Shown piece by piece: positions 2,214 to 13,714 of a stretch of DNA of 64,000 nucleotides. The position numbers and the translations under genes were made by a program. The notes beneath the pieces are model-generated. The model did not search any database. It saw only the letters and a list, made by a program, of their open reading frames with translations, and had not been told where the DNA came from. This stretch comes from Noviherbaspirillum pedocola (GTDB taxonomy: Bacteria; Pseudomonadota; Gammaproteobacteria; Burkholderiales; Burkholderiaceae_D), in the NCBI RefSeq assembly GCF_016632335.1, contig NZ_JAEPBG010000011.1, positions 62,001 to 126,000 of the forward strand. Direction: 5' to 3'. The number at the start of each line of letters is the position of its first letter. Within the stretch, counting starts at the first letter, position 1.

Positions 2214-2934
2214 GGCGGGCGGTAAAGGTGGGGATTGTTTGTTTGAGTTTGAGAGATTGTTGACATTTCTCGGAGGAAAGTAAATTACTCCCGCTAAATT
2301 AGTCGTCATTAATGGCATAAACGTGGCGGCGAGAACACATCTCTTGCATTCCAAGTACTAAAACGATGAAAAAAGTCGGACTGGAAATGCCCAAGATAGA
2401 GTCTTTTGCAGATAAAGATAAGCTGGGCCGTGATCTGTATCCGTCAAATCGTTAGTGTTGTCGCATGAGATAAATCGCCATAGGAAAAGGCGGTGTGTTC
2501 CGTCACAATGACCGGCATGAGGAACAGCAAGCCGTTTGGGTAAGCTACTGCAGTTCGAACACGGGAAGAAATATGGAGACCGAACAGCATTCAGTGCACG
2601 GGAAGCGCAAATGCGCTCTGGGTAGCCTGCGCGCGGTTGAAATCAAGCCAGTCGTGGAGCAGTCTGCGCCCGCGACACACATAGCCGCCATGATGGCGCA
2701 GTCGTCAGCCTTAATGATGGGTATGATGCTCCTGCCGCTGCAATGCTTTATTCATGCCACTGCCACTGCCAGTGCCAGTGCCAGTGCCAGTGCGGGGGTG
2801 GTCAATCGGTATTGGCAAGTAAAGCAGCACTTATACGAATCTCAGGTTTGAAAAACGTGTAGATGGGTCAGCGGTCTGAGCGGGACTTTATTCTCCAAGG
2901 AGGCTGCCGTGCTGACGCTGGAAAAAATTTACAC
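2214..2934. other. Intergenic, with one doubtful short frame
   Basis: An open frame at 2495-2851 on the plus strand (118 codons) spans this gap, but it has no ribosome site, no domain, and a stretch created by a hexanucleotide repeat. No other gene was recognised. Confidence 0.4.
2756..2793 (+). repeat. Hexanucleotide tandem repeat
   Basis: Six and one third copies of GCCAST: two GCCACT units followed by four GCCAGT units. In the doubtful frame covering it this reads as alternating Ala-Thr then Ala-Ser. Such repeats can change length by slippage in multiples of two codons. Confidence 0.85.
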
Positions 2935-4120: not shown

Positions 4121-4954
4121 TCAGGCGCGCTTCTTGCGGCGCGACATACCCAGACCCAACAGGCCCAGGCCGATCAGCGCAACGCTGGCCGGTTCCGGAA
4201 CAGCGGTACCGCCGAAGATCACGTCCATCGACCCATTGACGGTCTGCGTGCCGGTCAGCGGAATGTTGTTGAACTGGCCGGACTGGAACGACACGTTGTA
4301 GAACGGGTTCGGCGAAGTAAAGAACTGACTGCCTTGCGACGTCAGCGCGAAGCTGGTCGACGAGCCGAAGCTGCCGCAGTTGATGCCGTTGGTGCTGCCG
4401 CAGGTCGACAGCGACGGATCCAGCGTGCCCTGGCCGGAGGTCGGCATGCCGGTGCCGATCAGGTAGTCGTCGCCGCTGTTGGCGCGGGTCCATGCGGTCG
4501 AGCCATTGGCCGGCTGGCCGAACGTCGTGTTCGTATTTGGATCGATGTACACCGACAGGGCACCGCCCGGGGTGAAGTTAAAGGTGGTCTTGCCGCCGGA
4601 AGTGCTGAAGGTGCCGCTGCCGGTGTACAGCGCATACAGGCCGTATTGCTGCGACACGACCGAGCCGGACTGGCCTAGCTGCGAGGCGACAGGGGACGAG
4701 CCGTTGTTGGCCACGAACTGGCCGGCATTCCACAGCAGCGAGACGTTGAAGGTATTGTTCGCGCCGAAGGAAATCACCTCGGTGTAGTTGCCGGTGACTT
4801 TGTCGGCGGTAAAGGTATTCGCAGTGGCGCCGGCGACCGAGCCTTCGTTGACCGTGAAGTCAGGGAAGGTCTGTGCCATTGCGGCCGAGCTCGCCAGCGC
4901 CAGTGCGCCCGTTACAGCGGCGGACATCAGGGTTTTTTGGATCAGCTTCTTCAT
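4121..4954 (-). CDS. PEP-CTERM exported protein, flocculation-associated PepA type
   Basis: A 277-residue protein with a Sec signal peptide (MKKLIQKTLMSAAVTGALAL, cleavage likely after AMA) and a C-terminal sorting tail: VPEP, a hydrophobic helix, and the basic end SRRKKRA. That tail is recognised by the EpsH/XrtA exosortase, which places the protein in the envelope or matrix. The body is low in Cys and rich in Ser, Thr, Gly and Asn. It resembles the PepA proteins tied to floc formation in Zoogloea and other betaproteobacteria, which is recognition from memory and not an alignment. The start at 4954 has GGAGGT five bases upstream. It is monocistronic, with a sigma-54 type promoter at 5060-5075 and a strong terminator, so it is an independently regulated extracellular-matrix gene. 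Confidence 0.88.
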   Translation of the reverse strand: MKKLIQKTLMSAAVTGALALASSAAMAQTFPDFTVNEGSVAGATANTFTADKVTGNYTEVISFGANNTFNVSLLWNAGQFVANNGSSPVASQLGQSGSVVSQQYGLYALYTGSGTFSTSGGKTTFNFTPGGALSVYIDPNTNTTFGQPANGSTAWTRANSGDDYLIGTGMPTSGQGTLDPSLSTCGSTNGINCGSFGSSTSFALTSQGSQFFTSPNPFYNVSFQSGQFNNIPLTGTQTVNGSMDVIFGGTAVPEPASVALIGLGLLGLGMSRRKKRA

Positions 4955-5059
4955 ACTACCTCCAGGATTTGGGTTGCTTTGCATGCACAGTTGTCGGGGT
5001 TCGCCGGCGTATCAGCAGCACGTTGCACAAATGCAAAATGTTACGCGATGCAAAAATTA

Positions 5060-5075
5060 TGCAAACGCTATGCCA
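5060..5075 (-). promoter_or_regulatory. Sigma-54 promoter of the PEP-CTERM gene
   Basis: On the minus strand the site reads TGGCAT-AGCGT-TTGCA, matching the RpoN consensus TGGCAC-N5-TTGCA at all but one base, with the GG and GC dinucleotides ten bases apart. It lies about 105 bases upstream of the ATG at 4954. In related bacteria PEP-CTERM and exopolysaccharide genes are driven by RpoN with the PrsK/PrsR two-component system; no such activator is in this window. Confidence 0.75.
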
Positions 5076-6230
5076 TGGGAAAAAACGTGATGCAAACCAA
5101 GCCACTAGCAATTAAGAAACAATGCAGAAAGTAAACTCTGTAAATTGCTCCGACACACATTTAATGCCTTAACTTAACAGTTTGGCATTTTCTTAGGCTG
5201 CGCAATTATTTAAAAGTGTGCGCTTACGTCGCGCCAATCGAATGAGTACTTCGGAAAGGGGCTTCCTTGTAGTCGTGTGGCGGAACCAGGCGGGCCTGCA
5301 TTCGACCAACGTCATGGTGACTGCCGCGGAAAATGTGAAGCAAGTCGTTGATTCACTATTTCGTAGTGCACAAAGCGTTGCATCGCAATAAGTTGCAGCG
5401 GGTACTTTCAATTCGCGCCGAAGCCTGCTGTTATCCATAGCGGAAGTTAATAGGCCGCGATAGCCAACGCGGTGCATCTACTCGCGAACTGTTCGCTTGC
5501 CCGCGTGAAGACGCCATTACAAAGGTGTATGTACCGCCAAGGGCCTATCGAATGCTTGTTGCGGCGAATGCGTGGGGCAACTGGCAGGGCTGCGCGCGAC
5601 GATACAGAGACAAAAGCGGGCTGCCTCACGGGGAATTCTTCCACGATGTGACTGCGACAGTCCTGCAATATAGCGATTCATCAGCATCAGTACCGCAGCG
5701 CACCGATGCATTCTCTGTGGCGCATACAGTGGTCTTTGCGGCACCAGCTCGATCAAGCGCGCCCGCCAACACAAGAGAGACCACGGGCTGATGGCGGCAG
5801 CACGAGGCGACAACTTCGCTGAATTTCTATCGATGAATAATCCGGCACTTCTTTTAAGGTGAGGTGATACGGAAACACTCACCTTCTTCGTCGCGGTTTG
5901 CCTAACAGGTTTTCGTGGACATTTAAACTTCGGCCGCACCATTTCCCAGATTTGATTTCAGCGTGGCAGGGAAAGTAACAGGAGCTGGCACATCGGTATG
6001 ATCACTCGCCTGAACGCCAAGACCTGTCCCATCCTCTGTGATGGCGAGCAATGGCGAGTCTCACCCGCGCTACTGCGTAAGATCATCGACCTCTCGCCAT
6101 TAACGAAATTACCGCGGCGGCAGGTGGGTAGTGCCGGAAAAGTCGATGACCGTCTTGCCTTCACGTTTACGCTTGAAATAAGTTGCAGGAAGCATTTTGC
6201 TCTTGGATTTCCCGCTAACCTGTCTGAAAA
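5076..6230. other. Gene-poor stretch
   Basis: Over 1.1 kb without a convincing gene. Several frames of 60-140 codons are open on either strand but lack ribosome sites and recognisable domains. The part next to 5076 should hold activator sites for the sigma-54 promoter, none of which could be identified by eye. Confidence 0.4.
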
Positions 6231-6234
6231 GTAA

Positions 6235-6334
6235 GGTTGTGGGGAAAATCGCGGAGCGTAAAATTTTTCCCACAACCCGTCACCGGCAGCGAGTTGTGGG
6301 AAAATTTAGATATATGCGTCTTTTTCCCACAACC
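6235..6334. repeat. Four alternating copies of GTTGTGGGRAAAA ahead of the nucleotidyltransferase gene
   Basis: The motif occurs at 6235-6248 (plus), 6265-6277 (inverted), 6293-6304 (plus) and 6322-6334 (inverted), making two nested inverted pairs. The last copy ends on the base before the ATG at 6335, where a Shine-Dalgarno should be. Possible roles are operator, mRNA hairpin blocking translation, or remnants of a repeat element. Confidence 0.8.
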
Positions 6335-7609
6335 ATGGATGAGCAACTTTGCGACGATCTCACGGATGACCAACGGCGACAATTTATTGATGCTCAACAG
6401 ATTAGGTCGAGCTGGTTAGCTGCTGAGCACCGCGTTGCGAACTACCGTGGCAGTATGTATTGGCAAAGCTCCAAGGGGCATGCGTACTTGTTCCGGGAAT
6501 ACAGCAAGGAAAATCGCAAGTACATGGGGCCACGTACGGCCGAAACTGAAAAAATTTACGCTGAGTTCAAAGCTGGTAAGGCTTCGGCAGAGGAGCGCTA
6601 CAAGGCACTCAGCGAGGCTCTTGCAAGGCACGAGCGTCTTAATGCCGCCCAGCGCGTCGGTCGCACGCCGATCGTAGTGGTCAAACTGTTAGAAGAACTC
6701 CGTAAGGCTGGGCTGCAAAACCATTTGATGGTTATTGGTACTAATGCGCTCTTCGCTTATGAAGCGCATGCCGGCGTTCGCTTTCACGGAAACGTGACTG
6801 CAACACATGATGTCGACTTGTTATGGGATTCGCGCAAGAAACTGACTTTGCTGGCCCATGCCGACGACAACTTCAGCAGGACTGGCCTCATCGGAGTGCT
6901 TCAAAAAGTAGACAAATCGTTTGAGTTGGAAGAGGGAAAAAACAGCGCTGCTAACAGCCAAGGTTATATGGTTGATCTAATCAAGCGCCGTCCTTTGTCG
7001 TTATATGATGACCAAGAGCAACAACCATTGATAACGCGTCCGCACGACTTTTGGGCGAGCAAAATCCGCAACATGGACTGGCTACTCTGTTCGCCAAAAT
7101 TCAAACAAGTTGTCGCCGCCAGTAACGGGAAGATGGCTGAGATGATTACGGTGGATCCTCGCGCCTTTGTTTTGTTTAAGGTGTATCTAGGCGAAAAGGA
7201 CGACCGTAATCCTTTGAAGGCGCCACGCGATATCGCGCAGGCCAAAGCAGTCTACAAACTTGTTCAGGAACGAATGCCTCAACTAGGCTTCGATCGTATC
7301 CATGTATTACCCGAAAAACCGCGAGATGAAAGGGTCTTTGACATTCTTGACCCGCACAGTAACGAGCAGCGATCCCTTGCTAAACAGCTAGGAGCAGTTG
7401 CACCCTTCGGAGAACATGTCGGAACAATCACAGCAGTAACGGCAACTGAGGTGATCCAGCATATCGGTCAAGGCAGGCACGTAGCTTGGGAACGTTCGAA
7501 ACTGAGCGGCGCATCCTTTGGACCTGGTGATGGTGTGACCATCTCTAAGGATGGGGTTCTACGTCCAACACGACAACAGGGGAGAACGGGGGCTCACAAA
7601 CACCGCTAA
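6335..7609 (+). CDS. GSU2403-type nucleotidyltransferase-fold protein
   Basis: A 424-residue protein beginning MDEQLCDDLTDDQRRQFIDA. Residues about 115-160 carry the fold signature: LMVIGTNALFAYEAHAG followed by VTATHDVDLLWD, where the DVD acidic pair would bind metal and nucleotide. This matches the GSU2403 family of nucleotidyltransferase-like proteins, whose substrates are not established; relatives by fold include AbiEii and MenT toxins. A middle segment (ITRPHDFWASKIRNMDW, then VDPRAFVLFK and HVLPEKPRDERVFDIL) continues the family architecture. The open frame extends upstream to 6197, but those residues are translated repeats, so I take ATG 6335. No Shine-Dalgarno is visible because a repeat copy occupies it. 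The next gene (7937) is an RNase-like protein in the same direction, 330 bases away. Confidence 0.75.
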   Translation: MDEQLCDDLTDDQRRQFIDAQQIRSSWLAAEHRVANYRGSMYWQSSKGHAYLFREYSKENRKYMGPRTAETEKIYAEFKAGKASAEERYKALSEALARHERLNAAQRVGRTPIVVVKLLEELRKAGLQNHLMVIGTNALFAYEAHAGVRFHGNVTATHDVDLLWDSRKKLTLLAHADDNFSRTGLIGVLQKVDKSFELEEGKNSAANSQGYMVDLIKRRPLSLYDDQEQQPLITRPHDFWASKIRNMDWLLCSPKFKQVVAASNGKMAEMITVDPRAFVLFKVYLGEKDDRNPLKAPRDIAQAKAVYKLVQERMPQLGFDRIHVLPEKPRDERVFDILDPHSNEQRSLAKQLGAVAPFGEHVGTITAVTATEVIQHIGQGRHVAWERSKLSGASFGPGDGVTISKDGVLRPTRQQGRTGAHKHR

Positions 7610-7610
7610 A

Positions 7611-7629
7611 ATCTTTTGCAGCAAAAGAT
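7611..7629. repeat. Odd palindrome with TTTTGCAGCAAAA core
   Basis: A 19-bp palindrome just after the nucleotidyltransferase stop codon. The same 13-bp core recurs four times at 10431-10818. It resembles the KorB operator TTTAGCSGCTAAA in length, odd centre and central GCNGC. Confidence 0.85.
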
Positions 7630-7936
7630 CGTATGCCAATACTTGTGTTGCGCGCGGAGTAAAAATGAGCCACTGGGAGTGCGGACGAAATCTTGGACTA
7701 CCTGGAGGTAGTTCATGTATTCGTACGAAGATCGCATGCGGGCGGTTTAGATTTACTTCGCGTTTGACACTTGTCTTAGTCGTGGATCTCGCCAGTGCGC
7801 TGCTCCGTGATCGAACACCCAGCGCGATAGACGGAGACCGGCCAGCAGACCGACTAATCGCTTTAATGCTAAAGTGATAGATCGCCACGGTGCGCTGTTT
7901 GCATAGCCTGGGGCTGCTTGATCGTTGGATGGGACA
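7630..7936. other. Intergenic, nothing recognised
   Basis: About 300 bases between the palindrome and the exonuclease gene. The open frames here on both strands are unsupported. Confidence 0.5.
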
Positions 7937-8395
7937 ATGCGTGTTTTTATCGATACGGAATTTACCGACCTTGCGAAACCAGAACTTATCAGCTTGGGCT
8001 TAGCCGCAGAGACGGGCGAGGAATGCTATATCGAAGTTCTATTTGAGGCCCGCCGGTGTACCGACTTCGTGCGCAATGTCGTCATTCCCTTGCTCGGTAA
8101 AGACCCTGATGCTTTCTGTCCGCGGAACGACTTGCGACTACGGATTCTGGAATGGCTGGGGATCGTGAAGGGAAGTGATCCAATCCAGATTTGTTACGAC
8201 TCGCCTCATGACTGGGACTTGTTCAACCGGGCGCTCGACGGCCAAGTGCCCGGTTGGATCGAGCCGATGCCGCTCAAAAGCTCTGACATCAACGAACTGC
8301 TGCTCTATTCGTACTTCCGCCGCCATCCCGATGAGAGCGAGCACCACGCGCTTTCCGATGCCAAGGCAAATTTGTACGCCTACAGGCCGCGATGA
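7937..8395 (+). CDS. DEDDh-type 3'-5' exoribonuclease-like protein
   Basis: A 152-residue protein of the RNase H/DnaQ fold. Motif I is FIDTEFT (Asp and Glu), motif II is probably YDSPHDWDLF, and motif III is HHALSDAKAN, giving H-x-A-x-x-D. These are the four acidic residues and histidine expected for metal-dependent 3'-5' exonucleases, and the compact size resembles the Rv2179c-type exoribonucleases. ATG 7937 has GGATGGG just upstream; the frame opens four codons earlier at 7925. The protein is soluble and has no signal peptide. It is alone in the strand with no operon partner closer than 330 bases. The enzymatic class is well supported; the substrate is inferred from the family. Confidence 0.78.
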   Translation: MRVFIDTEFTDLAKPELISLGLAAETGEECYIEVLFEARRCTDFVRNVVIPLLGKDPDAFCPRNDLRLRILEWLGIVKGSDPIQICYDSPHDWDLFNRALDGQVPGWIEPMPLKSSDINELLLYSYFRRHPDESEHHALSDAKANLYAYRPR

Positions 8396-8604
8396 ATTTT
8401 TGAGGGAGTAGGGACTCTGCTGGGACTTGCACCCGTTGCCCTGCCTTTACCTTCCGTCGCCCTCGCGAAGCCGTTGGCCTTCGGCATTGAGCTACAGTTT
8501 GTCGTGCGCCGCTTTAGCGGCGACCTAGCTGCGTGTAGCTGGAAACGAAATGACCCAGGCACGCATAGTGGCCTGGAACCTTCAACTACAGCTGGATAAG
8601 ACCA

Positions 8605-9651
8605 TTATCTTTTCGGGAATAGGCTCATGTCCATCTTTACAAACGAGTGTGCGGTTCTCGAGGGAGTCATCGGGACTGGCTTTTGCCAGAAAACACGAAA
8701 ACGTTTTTCGCTCAGCGTTTCGATGCTGCGTTCGTCACTATCGAGATCGATGTACTCTAGGGAGGCACTACTGAGACGCTGTTCTAAATTGAGTATGAGA
8801 CCCGGTATGGCCGGATGCTCCATGTCGCCAGGTTGATAAACCTCATCGGGAAGCTCTTCCTTTTTCTTTATGAGCTTGACGGTAGAAGCTAACGGGACAC
8901 AACGCAAATTCCTGCCGGGATTAGAACATTTGAGCTGCGGCGTAGCCAAATGATTCTTTCTCAATTCTGTGGTGACAGGCGAAGAAGAATCAGTTTCGCA
9001 TATTTGAGACGTGGCTGATCCAATTTCTGGAACGACCGGCTCATCCTGCAGTATCGGACTATTGAGTAGTTTGTGACCGGGCTTTTCGCGAGAAGGCTTT
9101 GCCGGCTCGTGCGCCGCCGTGGTTTTTTGGTCTTCCCGGACGCCAAAAATGCTCTCAGTTTTTGAAGCAACAAGCGAGCGGCTTCGTTCGTCAATCTCTG
9201 CAAGCTTGTTATGAACGAGACTAGGGTCAACCGCAGCAATCTCCTTACGTACTTCAGCCATCAAGAGGATTTGTTCATTCATGCGCCGCTGGCATTCGTC
9301 CAGACGGTCGGCAAGCATCTCGCTATAGTATTGCCGCACAGTAGCGGGATGAAGATTAAAACCACATTGCTTCAACAATGCTGCTATTTGTGAAAAAGAA
9401 CAGCCTTTGTTCCTCAATACGTAAAGATCGGGCATATATGAGGAAAAAAGCTGTCGCTGTGTGGCGTCGTTCGGAACCAAGTAACGCGTTGCAGCATCCA
9501 GCACTCCACGAATAACCGTGGCATCCTCAGCGCTAAATCGCTGTCGTGGACCTCTTGGCTTCGTTTGCGGGCTATTCATATCCAACTCTTTCACTTTTTG
9601 TCCTGGCATTTTGGTAATTACATCGCGTCCTTCGCGTAGTAACCCGACCAT
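8605..9651 (-). CDS. Plasmid-type protein with helix-turn-helix and coiled region, function unknown
   Basis: Up to 348 residues. The N-terminal part is ordered: a segment at about 35-95, then SFSQIAALLKQCGFNLHPAT followed by VRQYYSEML, which has the spacing of a helix-turn-helix. A helical, probably coiled stretch follows (DRLDECQRRMNEQILLMAEVRKEIAAVD). The remaining 200 residues are polar, low complexity and look disordered. I do not recognise a named family; such proteins occur on plasmids and integrated elements. The start is uncertain: 9651 is the longest frame, while ATG 9579 gives 324 residues; neither has a strong ribosome site. It is divergent from the hairpin module at 9760, and its likely job is DNA binding linked to that module, which is inference. 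Confidence 0.6.
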   Translation of the reverse strand: MVGLLREGRDVITKMPGQKVKELDMNSPQTKPRGPRQRFSAEDATVIRGVLDAATRYLVPNDATQRQLFSSYMPDLYVLRNKGCSFSQIAALLKQCGFNLHPATVRQYYSEMLADRLDECQRRMNEQILLMAEVRKEIAAVDPSLVHNKLAEIDERSRSLVASKTESIFGVREDQKTTAAHEPAKPSREKPGHKLLNSPILQDEPVVPEIGSATSQICETDSSSPVTTELRKNHLATPQLKCSNPGRNLRCVPLASTVKLIKKKEELPDEVYQPGDMEHPAIPGLILNLEQRLSSASLEYIDLDSDERSIETLSEKRFRVFWQKPVPMTPSRTAHSFVKMDMSLFPKR

Positions 9652-9759
9652 AGCGTATGTAGCCCATTTTAATAAATTTGCAGTTAGGAAACAAGAATTT
9701 TTCCTACCTTTTGATGCAGATTTATAGCAAATTTCCCTAGCACTCGTATTTTTTTACTT

Positions 9760-10025
9760 TGAATTTGACTGAAACCTTCCTTGAGTTTTCTTCTTGTTTG
9801 CCTCGTAGACACTGTGGATTACCTTGATATTCAATCTAAAGTCGCAATGCTCTAGCTGAGAACTTGCTTTAGATTTGTCTCGAATTTGCCGGATATTTAC
9901 CGCACACGCTAGGGAATAGTGACGGGCAGGATGCCGGATGTATATCTCACGATATACATCCGGGTTTCAGCAGTTAGGTCGCTTCGCGCCCGTCGCAGCC
10001 GACTCAGGGCTTCGCCCCGAGACCC
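9760..10025 (+). other. Module A: oriT-like site with phased repeats and hairpin
   Basis: Three parts in order. First, TTG(C) elements at 11-bp spacing, clearest at 9870-9915 (TTGCTTTAGAT, TTGTCTCGAAT, TTGCCGGATAT, TTACCGCACAC). Second, a block GGGCAGGATGC and a perfect 13-bp stem with a TCAC loop at 9934-9963. Third, a conserved GC-rich block at 9964-10025 ending GGGCTTCGCCCCGAGACCC. The MobC-like gene starts 44 bases later. The whole arrangement recurs inverted at 12932-13184. The position next to mobC and the resemblance of the GC-rich block to the bom/oriT surroundings of small mobilizable plasmids suggest an origin of transfer; no nic site was proven. Confidence 0.65.
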
Positions 10026-10068
10026 ATCAAATAATGCTGTACGTTGAAAATCGTGAAAGCATCTAACG

Positions 10069-10389
10069 ATGCGATTCCAATGCAATCCTGAAGAAGAGCT
10101 CCGCGTGATTCAGCTGCAAATAAGACTTACTCAAAAGGAAAGTGAGGAGATAAAGAAATCTTCTGAAATAAGAAATCCCGATTTTACAGAGTTTGGTCGG
10201 CGTGCTGCTCTTAACCGCAAGGCTGAAGTCAGAACTGAGAACAAAATCGTTTTGGAGATCCGTGCATTAACGCATAGAATGCACGAAACTCATCGGGAGC
10301 TCGTTTCACGTAACCTAGAGCCGTTTAAAGACGATTTCAGGAGCTTGCTGCCGGAAGCAACCGAAGCAATGAAGCGAATTTCTAAGTGA
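10069..10389 (+). CDS. MobC-like ribbon-helix-helix relaxosome accessory protein
   Basis: A 106-residue protein. Residues 13-50 (VIQLQIRLTQKESEEIKKSS, then DFTEFGRRAALNRK) fit the ribbon-helix-helix pattern of MobC-type accessory proteins: a beta strand, a helix with QKESEEI, and a second helix ending in RRAAL. MobC proteins bind the origin of transfer and help the relaxase open the strands. The C-terminal half is helical (VLEIRALTHRMHETHRELVS). No relaxase gene is in the window, so this would need help in trans. It lies directly downstream of hairpin module A, and a decayed copy lies next to module B, which supports a link between protein and site. No clear ribosome site precedes ATG 10069. 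Confidence 0.65.
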   Translation: MRFQCNPEEELRVIQLQIRLTQKESEEIKKSSEIRNPDFTEFGRRAALNRKAEVRTENKIVLEIRALTHRMHETHRELVSRNLEPFKDDFRSLLPEATEAMKRISK

Positions 10390-10430
10390 AGGCGAAAGCA
10401 AAAAAGCGGAAATACACCGGCGCCACTTTC

Positions 10431-10818
10431 TTTTGCTGCAAAACTTTTCAACGATGAGTGCTCACCTGCTTTGCAGGACAGGAAGCCAACAGAGGATTGG
10501 CATATCAAGATTCGATTACCACTTCAGTTTTATAGAGTGTCCATGATCAGGAGGTGAAGTAGCCCCCGGCGGAGAAGTCGTGCAGATTTCGGCAACTGAC
10601 TTTTGCTGCAAAAGTTCTTAGTCAGTGAATGATTCCACATACTCGACATCAACGGCTTGCCAAGCGCGTCTCGAGACCGTTTAACGGGCTTAGGCATTGG
10701 ACGGGTACACTGCTTCTCTGAACTTGTCATTTTGACAGCATAACCACCAAGTAAACTTTTGCTGCAAAAGATTTTCAGAATTCAAACTTTTTTGGACGAT
10801 CTTTTGCAGCAAAAGATC
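10431..10818. repeat. Four KorB-operator-like palindromes
   Basis: The core TTTTGCWGCAAAA occurs at 10431-10443, 10601-10613, 10757-10769 and 10802-10814; the last is the centre of a 21-bp perfect palindrome (10798-10818). The region between 10390 and 11033 otherwise holds no convincing gene. The shape matches operators of KorB/ParB-type plasmid proteins. Confidence 0.85.
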
Positions 10819-11033
10819 TCGAAGCCTTACTGAAGTAAATCGCCGCATAGGAAGCAATTCGTTTCGCCGAGACGGATACATATCCCTCACGCCACTATCT
10901 GGAGCAGTTGGTAATCCGCATAGAAGATTTTCGTCTCTCAATTCTGTGAAATAGGGGGAATTACATCACAGGCTTTATCTCGGTGAATCCCGCATGCCGT
11001 CATTTTACCGAACTAATAATTATTGTCAGGCCG

Positions 11034-11285
11034 TCAAAATGCACCGCCAGACTGATTAGTAAGCTCTTTCTCGACCAAGTCCAAAAGCATCCCAGGCTTG
11101 ATGTTAAGCGCACTTCCGAGCTTGAAAATCGATGTTAAAGATGGCTGTTTTTCTCCAAGCTCAATGGACGAAACGTAGTTGCGCTGTAAATCGGCCTTCA
11201 TACCGAGCGCCTCTTGCGTAAGTTGCGCATCCTTGCGCAGCTTACGCAGGACACGTCCAAAACAGACTGGAATCGATTTTTCCAA
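11034..11285 (-). CDS. Small Xre-family transcriptional regulator
   Basis: An 83-residue single-domain helix-turn-helix protein: VLRKLRKDAQLTQEALGMKA then RNYVSSIELGEKQPSLTSIF, with the typical helix 2-turn-helix 3 and the ExG(x)xxPS(l) end. Start is TTG 11285 with GGGAGA eight bases upstream. It is divergent from the 150-residue gene at 11414, and two near-identical palindromes lie between them, one overlapping its own ribosome site; that is the arrangement of an autoregulated repressor or activator. The size and layout also fit controller proteins of restriction-modification systems, but no methyltransferase or endonuclease is adjacent, so this stays a possibility. Confidence 0.85.
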   Translation of the reverse strand: MEKSIPVCFGRVLRKLRKDAQLTQEALGMKADLQRNYVSSIELGEKQPSLTSIFKLGSALNIKPGMLLDLVEKELTNQSGGAF

Positions 11286-11292
11286 AGTTTTC

Positions 11293-11355
11293 TCCCTCTA
11301 TAGCGGGAGAAACGGTGGCGGATCTGCTAGAATCTGTCTTCCCTCTATAGTGGGA
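11293..11355. promoter_or_regulatory. Twin operators between the Xre gene and its divergent neighbour
   Basis: Two 16-bp near-palindromes, 11293-11308 (TCCCTCTATAGCGGGA) and 11340-11355 (TCCCTCTATAGTGGGA), centred on CTATAG and 47 bases apart. One covers the ribosome-site region of the Xre gene, the other lies in the promoter region of the gene at 11414. Confidence 0.75.
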
Positions 11356-11413
11356 ATTCGGCTCGTTCTCAGCTGAGTTCGATACTTTCTTTTTCAGGAA
11401 TAACTTAATAAAA

Positions 11414-11866
11414 ATGGTAACTAAATCCGAACGACATGCGATGCAAAATGCAATCGAAACGCTCGTCACTTCGCATCCAAAAATCTTTAAAGGAAAATCG
11501 CCCAAAGTATCTCCACTAGTTCCAGTGGGATGGTCCAAACTATTAAAGATACTCTGTAAGGTATTGGAAGAAGAATGTACCGCCAGCACCCTCGCCAAGC
11601 TTGAAATTATCAATATAACAAGACGACTCCGGTGTTTCTTGAAGGTGGAATATAAGTTAAAAGGTAAAGTCAGTCCGCAGCAGGCATGGACCGTCCGGGA
11701 TAAAGTTTTTTCAGTGTCGCATCTTTGCACTTACAGCTGTGTTGTCTGTGGTGAGTATATTGGCGATTCTCCCAAAAGTATTTCGATGATTCTTTGTGAA
11801 AAACATATTCATTCCGCCCTTCCGGCTTCATTAAAGATGTTTCGGCGTCGGGTCGCCAGCGCGTAA
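11414..11866 (+). CDS. Hypothetical protein with C-terminal Cys/His cluster
   Basis: A 150-residue basic protein I do not recognise. The C-terminal third contains CVVCGE and, 22 residues on, CEKH, a spacing that could bind zinc (CxxC...CxxH). The rest is helical with many Lys. Start ATG 11414; the nearest purine-rich run (AGGAATAA) is about 16 bases away, so translation initiation may be weak. It is divergent from the Xre gene and shares the twin-operator region, so it is probably the regulated target. Base composition is lower in GC than the flanking chromosome, in keeping with a plasmid-like origin. Function unknown. Confidence 0.6.
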   Translation: MVTKSERHAMQNAIETLVTSHPKIFKGKSPKVSPLVPVGWSKLLKILCKVLEEECTASTLAKLEIINITRRLRCFLKVEYKLKGKVSPQQAWTVRDKVFSVSHLCTYSCVVCGEYIGDSPKSISMILCEKHIHSALPASLKMFRRRVASA

Positions 11867-12249
11867 TTGGTGAGGGGATACGCTAGATTTTTGCCAAGTA
11901 AAACGCATTCTACCGAATACAAACCGTATTAACAGCATAAGACGTTGCAGTTTTAGTAACCTGCTCACGGACGTGTTGCAGGAGTTGTAGTTGTTTGAAG
12001 GTTTTACATGGTATAAACGACGCATGATGTTAATTCGAAAATTCGTTTAGTACTGGACCTTTTGTTTTAGTCATCGAAAGCGAGGCACTTGAAAAATGCA
12101 CGGATCACGGGTTCAGGTTTGACGATTTAGCGAACTTTAGGTGAGGAGCAGGAAAGCTCGGGCCCGCCGCAAACTGTCGGCGATATGACTGCACCCGACG
12201 GTATAGCAGTTAGCGACGACGCCCGTGTCGCCTCTGAGGATAGGCCGCT
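11867..12249. other. Intergenic, nothing recognised
   Basis: Short unsupported frames only, between the Cys-rich protein gene and the IS5 relic. Confidence 0.5.
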
Positions 12250-12618
12250 TTACCGATTCTTATTGTTGGCATCGTAGCCGCGCTCTCCTGGTGCTAGCGC
12301 CTTGACTGTCTCAGCGTTCGGCTGGGTGGGCGCTGTGACCGCCGGATCGATACTCCCCCGTGGATTACACGGAAAAACAAACGACATACGAAGCGCCGGA
12401 ACCACCAGTACACCGTCTGCCAGGACGGAAAGTCGCGTGGCAGCATGCGCTACTCGCACTATGAGCGCATCAGGTACCGAATCGCATTGATGACTTCGCG
12501 GAGGTCCACGCCGCGCGGCCGACCGGTGCGCGCTGCTGCCGGCGTCAACGGTGCAATAACCGACTTCATCGTCGATTAGATCACTTGGATAACGCTTGAG
12601 CTCTTTGGTCCGAGCCAC
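12250..12618 (-). pseudogene. IS5-family transposase, N-terminal half, decayed
   Basis: The minus strand begins ARTKELKRYPSDLIDDE, the typical start of IS5-type transposases. A second frame then gives GRPRGVDLREVINAIRYLMR followed by stops where RSGCGWRMLP should be, then RMLPRDFPSWQTVYWWFRRF. The first frame ends ETVKALAPGERGYDANNKNR, recalling the SVKAPAPGERGYDA motif of the family. So at least two frameshifts and two nonsense changes are present, and the DDE catalytic half is missing. It lies inside the mobilizable relic, between the Cys-rich gene and the decayed mobC copy. It is non-functional. Confidence 0.8.
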
Positions 12619-12699
12619 CGCTTTTGCCCGGTGTTCCTTGGTCTACATCGCTTTGCCTCCTGCGCTAGCGGCGCATTAGGCAGTCAGATTAATGGCTTC

Positions 12700-12835
12700 C
12701 AATGCGTTTTCAAACAGCCTTTTACGGCAGCCGATTTTTTTATTTCCTCACTCTCCTTTTGAGTGAGTCGTATTGGCAGCCGAATCGCGCTGCGCTCGTC
12801 TTCAGATTTGGGGCAAATGTCACTGCCGGATGAAT
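12700..12835 (-). pseudogene. Decayed second copy of the MobC-like gene
   Basis: The minus strand reads DERSAIRLPIRLTQKESEEI then KKSAAVKG, closely matching residues 9-31 of the gene at 10069 (EELRVIQLQIRLTQKESEEIKKSS). DNA similarity starts in the segment AATC-TGAAGA(C)GAGC shared by both copies and stops after about 100 bases. It stands in the same order and orientation relative to module B as the intact gene does to module A, so the module and the gene were duplicated or acquired together and this copy has since been truncated. Confidence 0.75.
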
Positions 12836-12931
12836 ACTACCCTTTGAGGAAATCAAGGCCGGCATTGACAGCAAAATCGCCTAACTAAATTTTTCTAGTT
12901 TATTCCGTACAGCAACAGATAATTGATTTAA

Positions 12932-13184
12932 GGGTCTCGGGGCGAAGCCCTGAGTCGTCTGCGACGGGTGCGAAGCGACCTAGTGGTCGAAACCTAGATG
13001 TGCTGTGGGCACATCTAGCATCCTGCCCATCACTATCCCCTAGTGAGGGCGGCAAATATGCAGCAAATTCGCGGCAAGTTTTCTACAGGTTCTTCGTAAG
13101 ATTGGGAGCAAGTTCTAAGCAAAAGTATGGCAACTTTTAAGTGAGTCTGAGGGAGAAATACAGCGATTTCGAGGCAAACATGAC
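12932..13184 (-). other. Module B: inverted, diverged copy of the oriT-like module
   Basis: Read on the minus strand it repeats module A: TTGC elements at 11-bp steps (TTGCCGCGAAT, TTGCTGCATAT, TTGCCGCCC and further copies upstream to about 13135), GGGCAGGATGC, a perfect 10-bp stem with a 5-base loop (12994-13018), then the GC-rich block ending GGGCTTCGCCCCGAGACCC at 12932. Flanking blocks are nearly identical to A, while the stem sequence differs but still pairs completely. Module similarity runs to about 13184, where the IS30 relic begins. Confidence 0.7.
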
Positions 13185-13714
13185 ATCAGCATTCACGTGC
13201 GTCCGCCGGAGGTCGGTGACCGCATCATGCCGGGCCACTGGAAAGGCGACTTCATCAAGGGGGCAGGCAACACGTCTTCGGTCGGCGTGCTGGTCGAGCG
13301 CACCAGCCGCCTGGTGTTGCTGGCGCGCATGGAAGATGCGACGGCAGCCTCGGCGCTGGCGGGCTTTACGGCCAAGCTCAATGCCATCAGTGCGCCGCTG
13401 CGCCAGAGCCTGACCATGACCAAGGCAAGGAAATGACCCGCCATGCCGAGCTGGCTGCCAACACTGGCGTGTGCGTGTATTTTTGCGCCCCGCATAGTCC
13501 CTGGCAGCGCGGCACCTGTGAAAACACCATCGGTCTGCTGCGCCAGTATCTGCCCAAGGGAACCGACCTGTCGATCTACTCCCAGGAACAGCTCGATGCC
13601 ATTGCTGACAGCCTCAACACGCGGCCCCGCGCGACGCATAACTGGCTCACGCCATTGCAGGTCTATGCCGCCGCTTTGGCGAGTGCCCATCAACCTGAAA
13701 CGTCAGTTCATTAA
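13185..13714 (+). pseudogene. IS30-family transposase, catalytic half, frameshifted
   Basis: Starts mid-gene with SIHVRPPEVGDRIMPGHWKG, includes the first catalytic Asp (GDFIKGAGN), and after a shift continues MTRHAELAANTGVCVYFCAP, then PWQRGTCENTIGLLRQYLP with the catalytic Glu, and NTRPRATHNWLTPLQVYAAA to a normal end at 13714. At about 13415 one T is missing from what should read LTYDQGKEMTR, which shifts the frame and destroys the second catalytic Asp. The N-terminal DNA-binding third is absent because the relic begins at the edge of module B. Inactive remnant. Confidence 0.88.

Follow-up and report, generated by a model that had tools for sequence, protein, structure and literature searches.

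The stretch analyzed here, 64,000 nucleotides of Noviherbaspirillum pedocola contig NZ_JAEPBG010000011.1 (positions 62,001 to 126,000; hereafter the window), holds two diverged copies of one hairpin module that are very probably origins of transfer (oriTs), sites at which a plasmid is cut to let a single DNA strand move into another cell. The core of module A lies at 9924-10025 on the plus strand and that of module B at 12932-13028 on the minus strand; the two are opposed in orientation, with predicted nick sites ~3.1 kb apart. Each runs, from outside to inside, through a flank of weak 11-bp repeats, the sequence GGGCAGGATG (9924-9933 in A; 13028-13019 on the minus strand in B), a perfect hairpin, a GC-rich block ending in CTCAGGGCTTCGCCCCGAGACCC (9976-10025, plus strand, in A; 12932-12981, minus strand, in B, read from the sequence with coordinates checked), and a NikA-like gene, and GGGCTTCGCCCCGAGACCC is without any difference between the copies. 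Aligned in four blocks (I1-I4), A and B are 82% identical over 83 nt, 84% over 80, 77% over 83, and 70% over 77; this divergence of 16-30% across ~320 nt makes them old relatives and excludes a fresh duplication. The similarity that the original prediction placed at 9760-10025 and at B is real, though it begins near 9792 rather than 9760 and reaches beyond 10025 into the downstream gene; on the B side, it stops at 13183, beside a remnant of an insertion sequence (IS).

The two stems differ, as first described, while both are perfectly paired. Hairpin A (9934-9963) joins its arms at 9934-9946 and 9951-9963 in 13 of 13 base pairs around the loop TCAC, and hairpin B (12994-13018) joins arms 13018-13009 and 13003-12994, read on the minus strand, in 10 of 10 base pairs around the 5-base loop CCACA, with coordinates checked for both. 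The flank before the hairpin, the GGTTTC after it, and the GC-rich block were likewise found in both modules, with the correction that the last C of the GGGCAGGATGC originally quoted and the first G of GGTTTC form the outer base pair of each stem. Folded as single-stranded DNA, hairpin A gave z = -7.0 and -6.4 on its two strands and hairpin B gave -4.0 and -3.8, with none of 200 shuffles as good in any of the four folds.

At the foot of each stem, the opposite strand reads CATCCTG|CCC, which matches the MOBP nick core. In the available part of PMC3772185, the extended consensus for nicking by MOBP relaxases is (C/T)ATCCTG(C/T), and an inverted repeat that varies more lies immediately upstream of it. 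Consistent with this description, CATCCTGC is present at both A and B, and the stem directly abuts it on the 5′ side of the strand predicted to be cut, an arrangement kept in relatives. Predicted nic A falls between 9927 and 9926 on the minus strand; on the plus strand, predicted nic B separates 13025 from 13026, core and cut site together spanning 13019-13026. The complement of the nick core, CAGGATG (9927-9933, plus strand, in A), is present in all 22 oriTs compared below, a count that was bound to be complete because the pattern used to collect them required it. As the nick 8-mer alone is not rare, with 16 places on both strands of the window, it is its position at the hairpin foot, rather than the 8-mer itself, that counts.

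Beside A lies an intact gene of 106 amino acids (10069-10389, plus strand) that matches the NikA-like family PF21983 (E = 5.3e-7; 30.1 bits against a cut-off of 27), as would be expected of the ribbon-helix-helix (RHH) accessory gene (TraJ/NikA/MobA) of a MOBP oriT. Its product scores 31.1 bits against NF041264 MobA, under the cut-off of 80, and is 31-40% identical to NikA-like open reading frames (ORFs) of related records that are themselves PF21983 matches; one further NikA-like gene, in relative L071, was missed by tblastn with the window protein (E 0.01) and matched by Pfam (67 bits). A phmmer search of the PDB with the window protein gave weak hits only (best E 0.49), and a fold predicted from four sequences had a mean predicted local distance difference test score of 60 and was not used. 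The claim that a MobC-like gene stands beside both modules thus holds for A; at B, the gene is truncated, with a stretch at 12728-12810 (minus strand) that is 82% identical to A over 83 nt and 62% identical over 29 amino acids.

A search of plasmid sequences for the modules, which the original prediction had called for, matched eight plasmid records by blastn; all are from Burkholderiales except one, which carries the label Shinella. B used alone as the query matched no plasmid. NikA-like ORFs lie downstream of the module in L005-L008, L019, L024, L026, and L071. A relaxase gene follows further downstream in the fetched stretches of L005, L007, and L008, with those of L005 and L008, the two compared with NCBIfam, matching TraI/MobA(P), and a full-length or nearly full-length relaxase is present in the records of L005, L007, L008, L024, and L026. 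L005 itself (NZ_CP019242.1) is a Rhodoferax plasmid deposited as linear, and its two identical relaxase matches (4568-7519 and 95511-98462) are perhaps overlapping assembly ends.

The last 23-24 bases of the GC-rich block were also found in 20 other plasmid records, of which six, including Pseudomonas alcaligenes pRA2, were fetched as hits and one (L071) by accession. In five of the six fetched pRA2-type plasmids, 22-67 bp separate the block end (mismatched at one base in L056) from mobA, or a small gene in its place, downstream of it. In L055, it falls within the annotated 5′ end of the gene in the mobA place, before a NikA domain that begins only at residue 52, so the annotated start may be mis-set. 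In all six, traI follows the gene in the mobA place, in L054 after two intervening small genes, and each plasmid carries another hairpin behind a GGACAGG core.

Among genome contigs, a protein search with NikA found no relative, and a DNA pattern search matched 12 stretches; viral contigs gave no match to the DNA pattern. Genomes sampled from the order hold the exact pattern in 2 of 399 cases, and those sampled from the family in 2 of 392; this genome is one of the two each time, and the exact module is therefore rare. One genomic match, Sideroxydans contig L028, holds two different oriTs at 2525-2618 (plus strand) and 2682-2775 (minus strand), which face each other ~60 bp apart in a convergent layout like that of the window; a phage-type integrase gene (PF00589) lies 2 kb away.

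Two inverted copies that are separated by 3 kb and neighbor an IS remnant could also be the ends of an insertion sequence, a recombination site, or a single-strand replication origin, as hairpins are common in all three. We regard this explanation as exceedingly improbable: A and B are too different from each other over their aligned length, the module elsewhere mostly occurs once per plasmid record (seven of eight by blastn, Rhodoferax having it in two places), and no transposase or recombinase gene is constant beside it in the annotated stretches. None of the fetched matches was an IS end, understood as the terminal repeat of a transposase-bearing element; instead of a transposase, three relatives carry NikA and relaxase genes downstream. 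The remnant beside B (13433-13714) is a match to the transposase domain rve_3, under cut-off, and lies near the end of the similarity to A.

The hairpins could alternatively act as RNA, terminating or attenuating transcription within the leader of the NikA-like gene. In A, L005, and L006, the distance from the hairpin end to that gene is ~90-105 nt; some stems are followed by short T runs (3-5); and an accessory protein can control the gene that encodes it, as the available text of PMC4175270 describes for MobC of RA3. In L007 and L008, however, other genes intervene and put the NikA-like gene at ~3.7 and 2.8 kb from the hairpin, which is still kept. No Rfam family matched at gathering score, and a terminator scan of 9700-13300 gave three sites (shuffles averaged 4.5) that included neither hairpin. 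An RNA element would also leave the nick core at the stem foot unexplained, and we consider it very unlikely.

Based on the nick core, the NikA-like and relaxase genes of the relatives, and the location of the GC-rich block end in pRA2-type plasmids, we place A and B, with high confidence for an assignment made from sequence, as MOBP-type (RP4/pRA2-like) origins of transfer. The origin of transfer was also the leading idea of the original prediction, and the place of the hairpin and the flanking NikA-like and divergent genes likewise favor it. A MOBP relaxase would cut the CATCCTG|CCC strand at the hairpin foot, leftwards at A, towards a divergent 348-amino acid gene, and rightwards at B; transfer of the freed strand would begin with its 5′ end, and the NikA-like gene would be last into the recipient. 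Weighing against this assignment, the NikA remnant at B is only ~83 nt with 29 alignable residues, a truncated gene in a module that abuts an IS remnant. Furthermore, two queries, one without a positive control and the other with matches in 9 of 19 genomes or records, turned up no cognate relaxase in the host genome, and the sole PF03432 hit of the genome belongs to another element, on contig C1. Since a relaxase gene does not define the DNA site, the membership of the site among MOBP oriTs stands, and the segment is an incomplete MOB module. The element on contig C1 (L015, ~800-805 kb) is a small mobile one with its own NikA-like gene and PF03432 relaxase, ~4 kb from a sigma-70-like gene, and is unlike the window module.

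Two plasmid systems resemble the window module closely. The oriT of the pRA2-type mobA-traI plasmids (pRA2, NC_005909, is typed MOBP) shares the GGACAGG core, a variable hairpin, a GC-rich region with CTCAGGGCTTCGCCCCGAGACCC, a NikA/MobA-like gene, and a TraI relaxase. It differs in that the pRA2 core is CTACCCTG rather than CATCCTG, in the sequences of the hairpin and middle block, and in that the window NikA is 24% identical to pRA2 MobA and below the NF041264 cut-off. RP4 shares the order divergent gene, oriT, accessory gene, relaxase, and the 348-amino acid ORF (8605-9651, minus strand) sits where TraK sits in RP4. This ORF has tblastn relatives at L005, L007, L008, L019, L024, L026, and L071, is a neighbor of the oriT in several relatives, and gave no Pfam match up to E 0.1. 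The oriT of RP4/RK2 (IncP; TraJ, TraI, and TraK) also has an ATCCTG nick core with an adjacent inverted repeat, according to the available part of PMC3772185; the likeness lies in nick core, inverted repeat, and gene order, and the divergent gene here is without a Pfam match.

Conserved pairing with changed sequence was central to the original prediction, and we examined it in 22 distinct oriTs: the two of the window, seven from plasmids found by blastn, and 13 found by a stem-blind pattern in which the core and the far block were fixed. The seven blastn-found oriTs came from a query containing hairpin A and so were not chosen blind to the stem. In an alignment-free arm-swap test that allows bulges and ignores kinship, cognate arms scored a mean of 8.0 against 4.3 for swapped arms, and none of 20,000 permutations reached the cognate mean. 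The 13 stem-blind oriTs alone scored 7.4 against 4.5 (0 of 20,000), and the seven blastn oriTs 8.6 against 4.3 (7 of 20,000). No permutation of 20,000 reached the cognate mean with L071 added (23 oriTs), with 17 oriTs whose hairpins are <80% alike, or in sub-family I (n = 17), while 103 of 20,000 did so in sub-family II (n = 6). Hairpin A has the top stem score of the 22; B scores 7 at the fixed arm split of this test, despite its 10/10 stem.

RNAalifold, run on a plain MAFFT alignment of the 22 oriTs, folded the GC-rich block and missed the stem, because bulges and loop lengths shift the arms out of register, and the arms were therefore tested directly and in two groups of equal geometry. Eight unbulged hairpins of one geometry show changes on both sides in 8 of 13 pairs, with 85.6% of cells paired as against 18-43% when the arms are slid by 1-3 columns; eight bulged hairpins show both-side changes in 6 of 12 pairs, with 86.5% of cells paired as against 26-40%. 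As grouping by geometry leans towards structure, we give priority to the arm-swap test, which alone covers the six of 22 (B, L006, L009, L025, L026, and the plus-strand L028 oriT) that fit neither group.

Several results pull the other way. Besides the RNAalifold miss, the pair counts treat G-T as a pair, the permutation statistics take no account of kinship, and further pair types, one of five pair measures, were not above shuffles (161 of 500 and 481 of 500 as high in the unbulged and bulged groups). Some homologous stems are also weak or bulged, as might have undone the original claim (L021, L023, L025, and the plus-strand L028 oriT score 4 to 4.5), although the group as a whole keeps cognate pairing. 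The covariation of the stem arms is real, and A and B belong to a known kind of oriT, as a clear case of a shape kept while its letters change. The hairpin is retained as a shape, with its letters drifting in compensated pairs.

Beyond the nic site, a second feature recurs. The leading-side flank of A (9792-9923, minus strand), which would be the first DNA out after nic A, aligns with that of B (13027-13183, plus strand), and both carry degenerate, phased 11-bp repeats. The best period is 22 in each (autocorrelation 0.42 at 22 and 0.41 at 11 for A; 0.43 and 0.42 for B), with 0 of 100 shuffles as high in either case, and Tandem Repeats Finder reports period 11 at 13049-13077 (2.6 copies) in the B flank. 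Across the 22 oriTs, autocorrelation in this flank averages 0.43 at spacing 11 and 0.41 at 22, whereas the remaining spacings between 3 and 30 give 0.22-0.28; the opposite flank shows no peak at 11 (0.25), with L004 and L009 peaking there at 22 and 21. Eighteen of the 22 have 11 or 22 as their best period, the exceptions being L005 (12), L008 (23), L026 (28), and one L028 copy (25). The repeat unit itself varies by plasmid (AAACTCGTTGC in L010, TATAAATCCAC in L028, AAATTCACCGC in L034), and the likely user of the array is a cooperative DNA-binding protein.

The closest precedent for the window modules is the family of staphylococcal pWBG749 oriT subtypes. In these plasmids, as far as the available portions of PMC4652767 and PMC8136818 describe them, the core is constant, and the IR2 hairpin varies by subtype; the RHH protein SmpO, encoded beside the oriT, binds one IR2 arm and a second upstream site. 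According to the same portions, several plasmids hold two or three oriT subtypes, and pWBG749 mobilizes a plasmid of another subtype in trans if that plasmid has the matching smpO. The window modules would work alike but are not members, as the core of that family is CTTATGCTCTT in the portions available, where the core here is CATCCTGC; the host phylum also differs, and specificity is experimental there and inferred here.

Similar pairing of hairpin and accessory protein may exist in MOBP plasmids. Over eight oriT-NikA pairs, arm distance tracks the NikA strand (left arm r = 0.37, p = 0.049; right arm r = 0.54, p = 0.007), while against the rest of NikA it gives r = 0.14 and 0.10 (p = 0.24 and 0.37). 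L024 equals L008 in the left arm (13/13) and in the NikA strand (10/10), whereas the remainder of its NikA is nearer to L007 (91%) than to L008 (81%). In the NikA remnant of B, 14 residues (IRLTQKESEEIKKS) equal those of A, and four of the six preceding strand residues are changed, as are more distant residues on either side. These data hint that hairpin and NikA strand change together, as in pWBG749. By that analogy, the NikA-like RHH protein probably reads one hairpin arm, in which case different hairpins would mean different specificities, and A and B would be two "addresses" in one segment. For RA3, the available text of PMC4175270 reports that changes in one inverted-repeat arm lower mobilization 100-fold. 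Such a role for NikA is harder to reconcile with the statement in the same text that transfer does not strictly require the accessory protein MobC to bind near oriT, and the correlation above comes from only eight pairs, with bulged right arms compared crudely.

The rest of the segment bears on where the modules came from. A palindrome, CTTTTGCWGCAAAAG, occurs four times at 10430-10815 (10430-10443 at 14/15; 10600-10614, 10756-10770, and 10801-10815 exact) and a fifth time, exactly, at 7613-7627, such that all four exact copies of the 7.2-Mb genome fall at 7613-10815 of the window; ~0.013 copies would be expected in the whole genome with equal bases. Exact copies elsewhere number 13 in a C. 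metallidurans plasmid, nine in an Acidovorax plasmid (pACP4.3), six in the L024 genome, and two in the L026 genome; the search covered 13 genomes or records, 8 of which have none. On pACP4.3, seven of nine sites lie in the annotated stretch, and five of these seven are intergenic, where 8.2% of the sequence is intergenic. The 13-bp core of the palindrome, TTTTGCWGCAAAA, also stands ~18-40 bp after the NikA-like gene in L007, L008, L024, and L026, and it is built like the KorB operator of IncP plasmids, given as TTTAGC(C/G)GCTAAA in the available part of PMC2680271; a literature text search for TTTTGCAGCAAAA gave no match. From this distribution and the KorB-operator-like build, the segment probably derives from such a large plasmid, of which it is a piece that stayed behind in the host. 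Of ten genes sampled on contig C3 outside the segment, nine match NCBIfam families of metabolism, signalling, or IS genes and one matches none, which suggests a chromosome, and the 40 kb surrounding the closest homologue of a flanking gene within the genus shared just two matching stretches with contig C3, too few to place an empty site or the edges of the element.

Other genes of the segment include a nucleotidyltransferase (PF12281) with a C-terminal KfrB domain at 6197-7609, with a relative on the L004 plasmid, and an RNase AS-like exonuclease (under NCBIfam cut-off) at 7925-8395, with a relative on the L071 plasmid. At 11034-11355, a helix-turn-helix (Cro/C1-type) gene and a 150-amino acid ORF diverge, and the two 16-bp copies of TCCCTCTATAGYGGGA between them are perhaps operators of the former.

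With an oriT and NikA and no relaxase found, transfer of the segment now would need a relaxase and a secretion system in trans. It may instead be a dead relic, in which the modules were once plasmid oriTs but the piece, stranded in the host, has ceased to transfer, and we give this nearly an even chance. The decay of B favors a relic, its NikA being truncated and a transposase remnant adjoining it, as do the relaxase searches of the genome and the contig C3 sample. On the other side, both modules retain a perfect stem and an intact nick core, the NikA frame of A is open, and the stem score of A is the highest of the 22. Plasmids with this oriT but no PF03432 relaxase also recur (six of eight module plasmids searched; a ninth, CP026547, has a relaxase), where "no PF03432" does not equal no relaxase of any kind, as CP054842 is typed MOBF,MOBP by MOB-suite. 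The oriT is carried by Polaromonas pE3SP1 and pE5SP1 and by pE19SP1; pE3SP1, pE5SP1, and Paraburkholderia FT54 plasmid 2 (with another hairpin variant) have oriT and NikA without a PF03432 relaxase, and the relaxase gene of pE5SP1, related to MOBQ1 ones, is Tn3-disrupted (PMC6015842). This recurrence favors transfer by a relaxase supplied from elsewhere.

We tentatively propose, at somewhat less than an even chance, that the hairpin and the NikA strand that reads the DNA act in this plasmid family as a rapidly evolving lock and key, which plasmids exchange as a unit while nick core and relaxase stay generic. Relaxase-less elements would carry their own lock, or two different facing ones as in the window and Sideroxydans L028, for more than one helper plasmid, and the 11-bp array beyond nic would be a second part selected for spacing rather than letters. 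The modules described here offer an oriT family that can be searched for in Burkholderiales plasmids where a PF03432 relaxase is not found, and a set of natural variants for asking whether the relaxosome reads the shape of the hairpin, its letters, or both.

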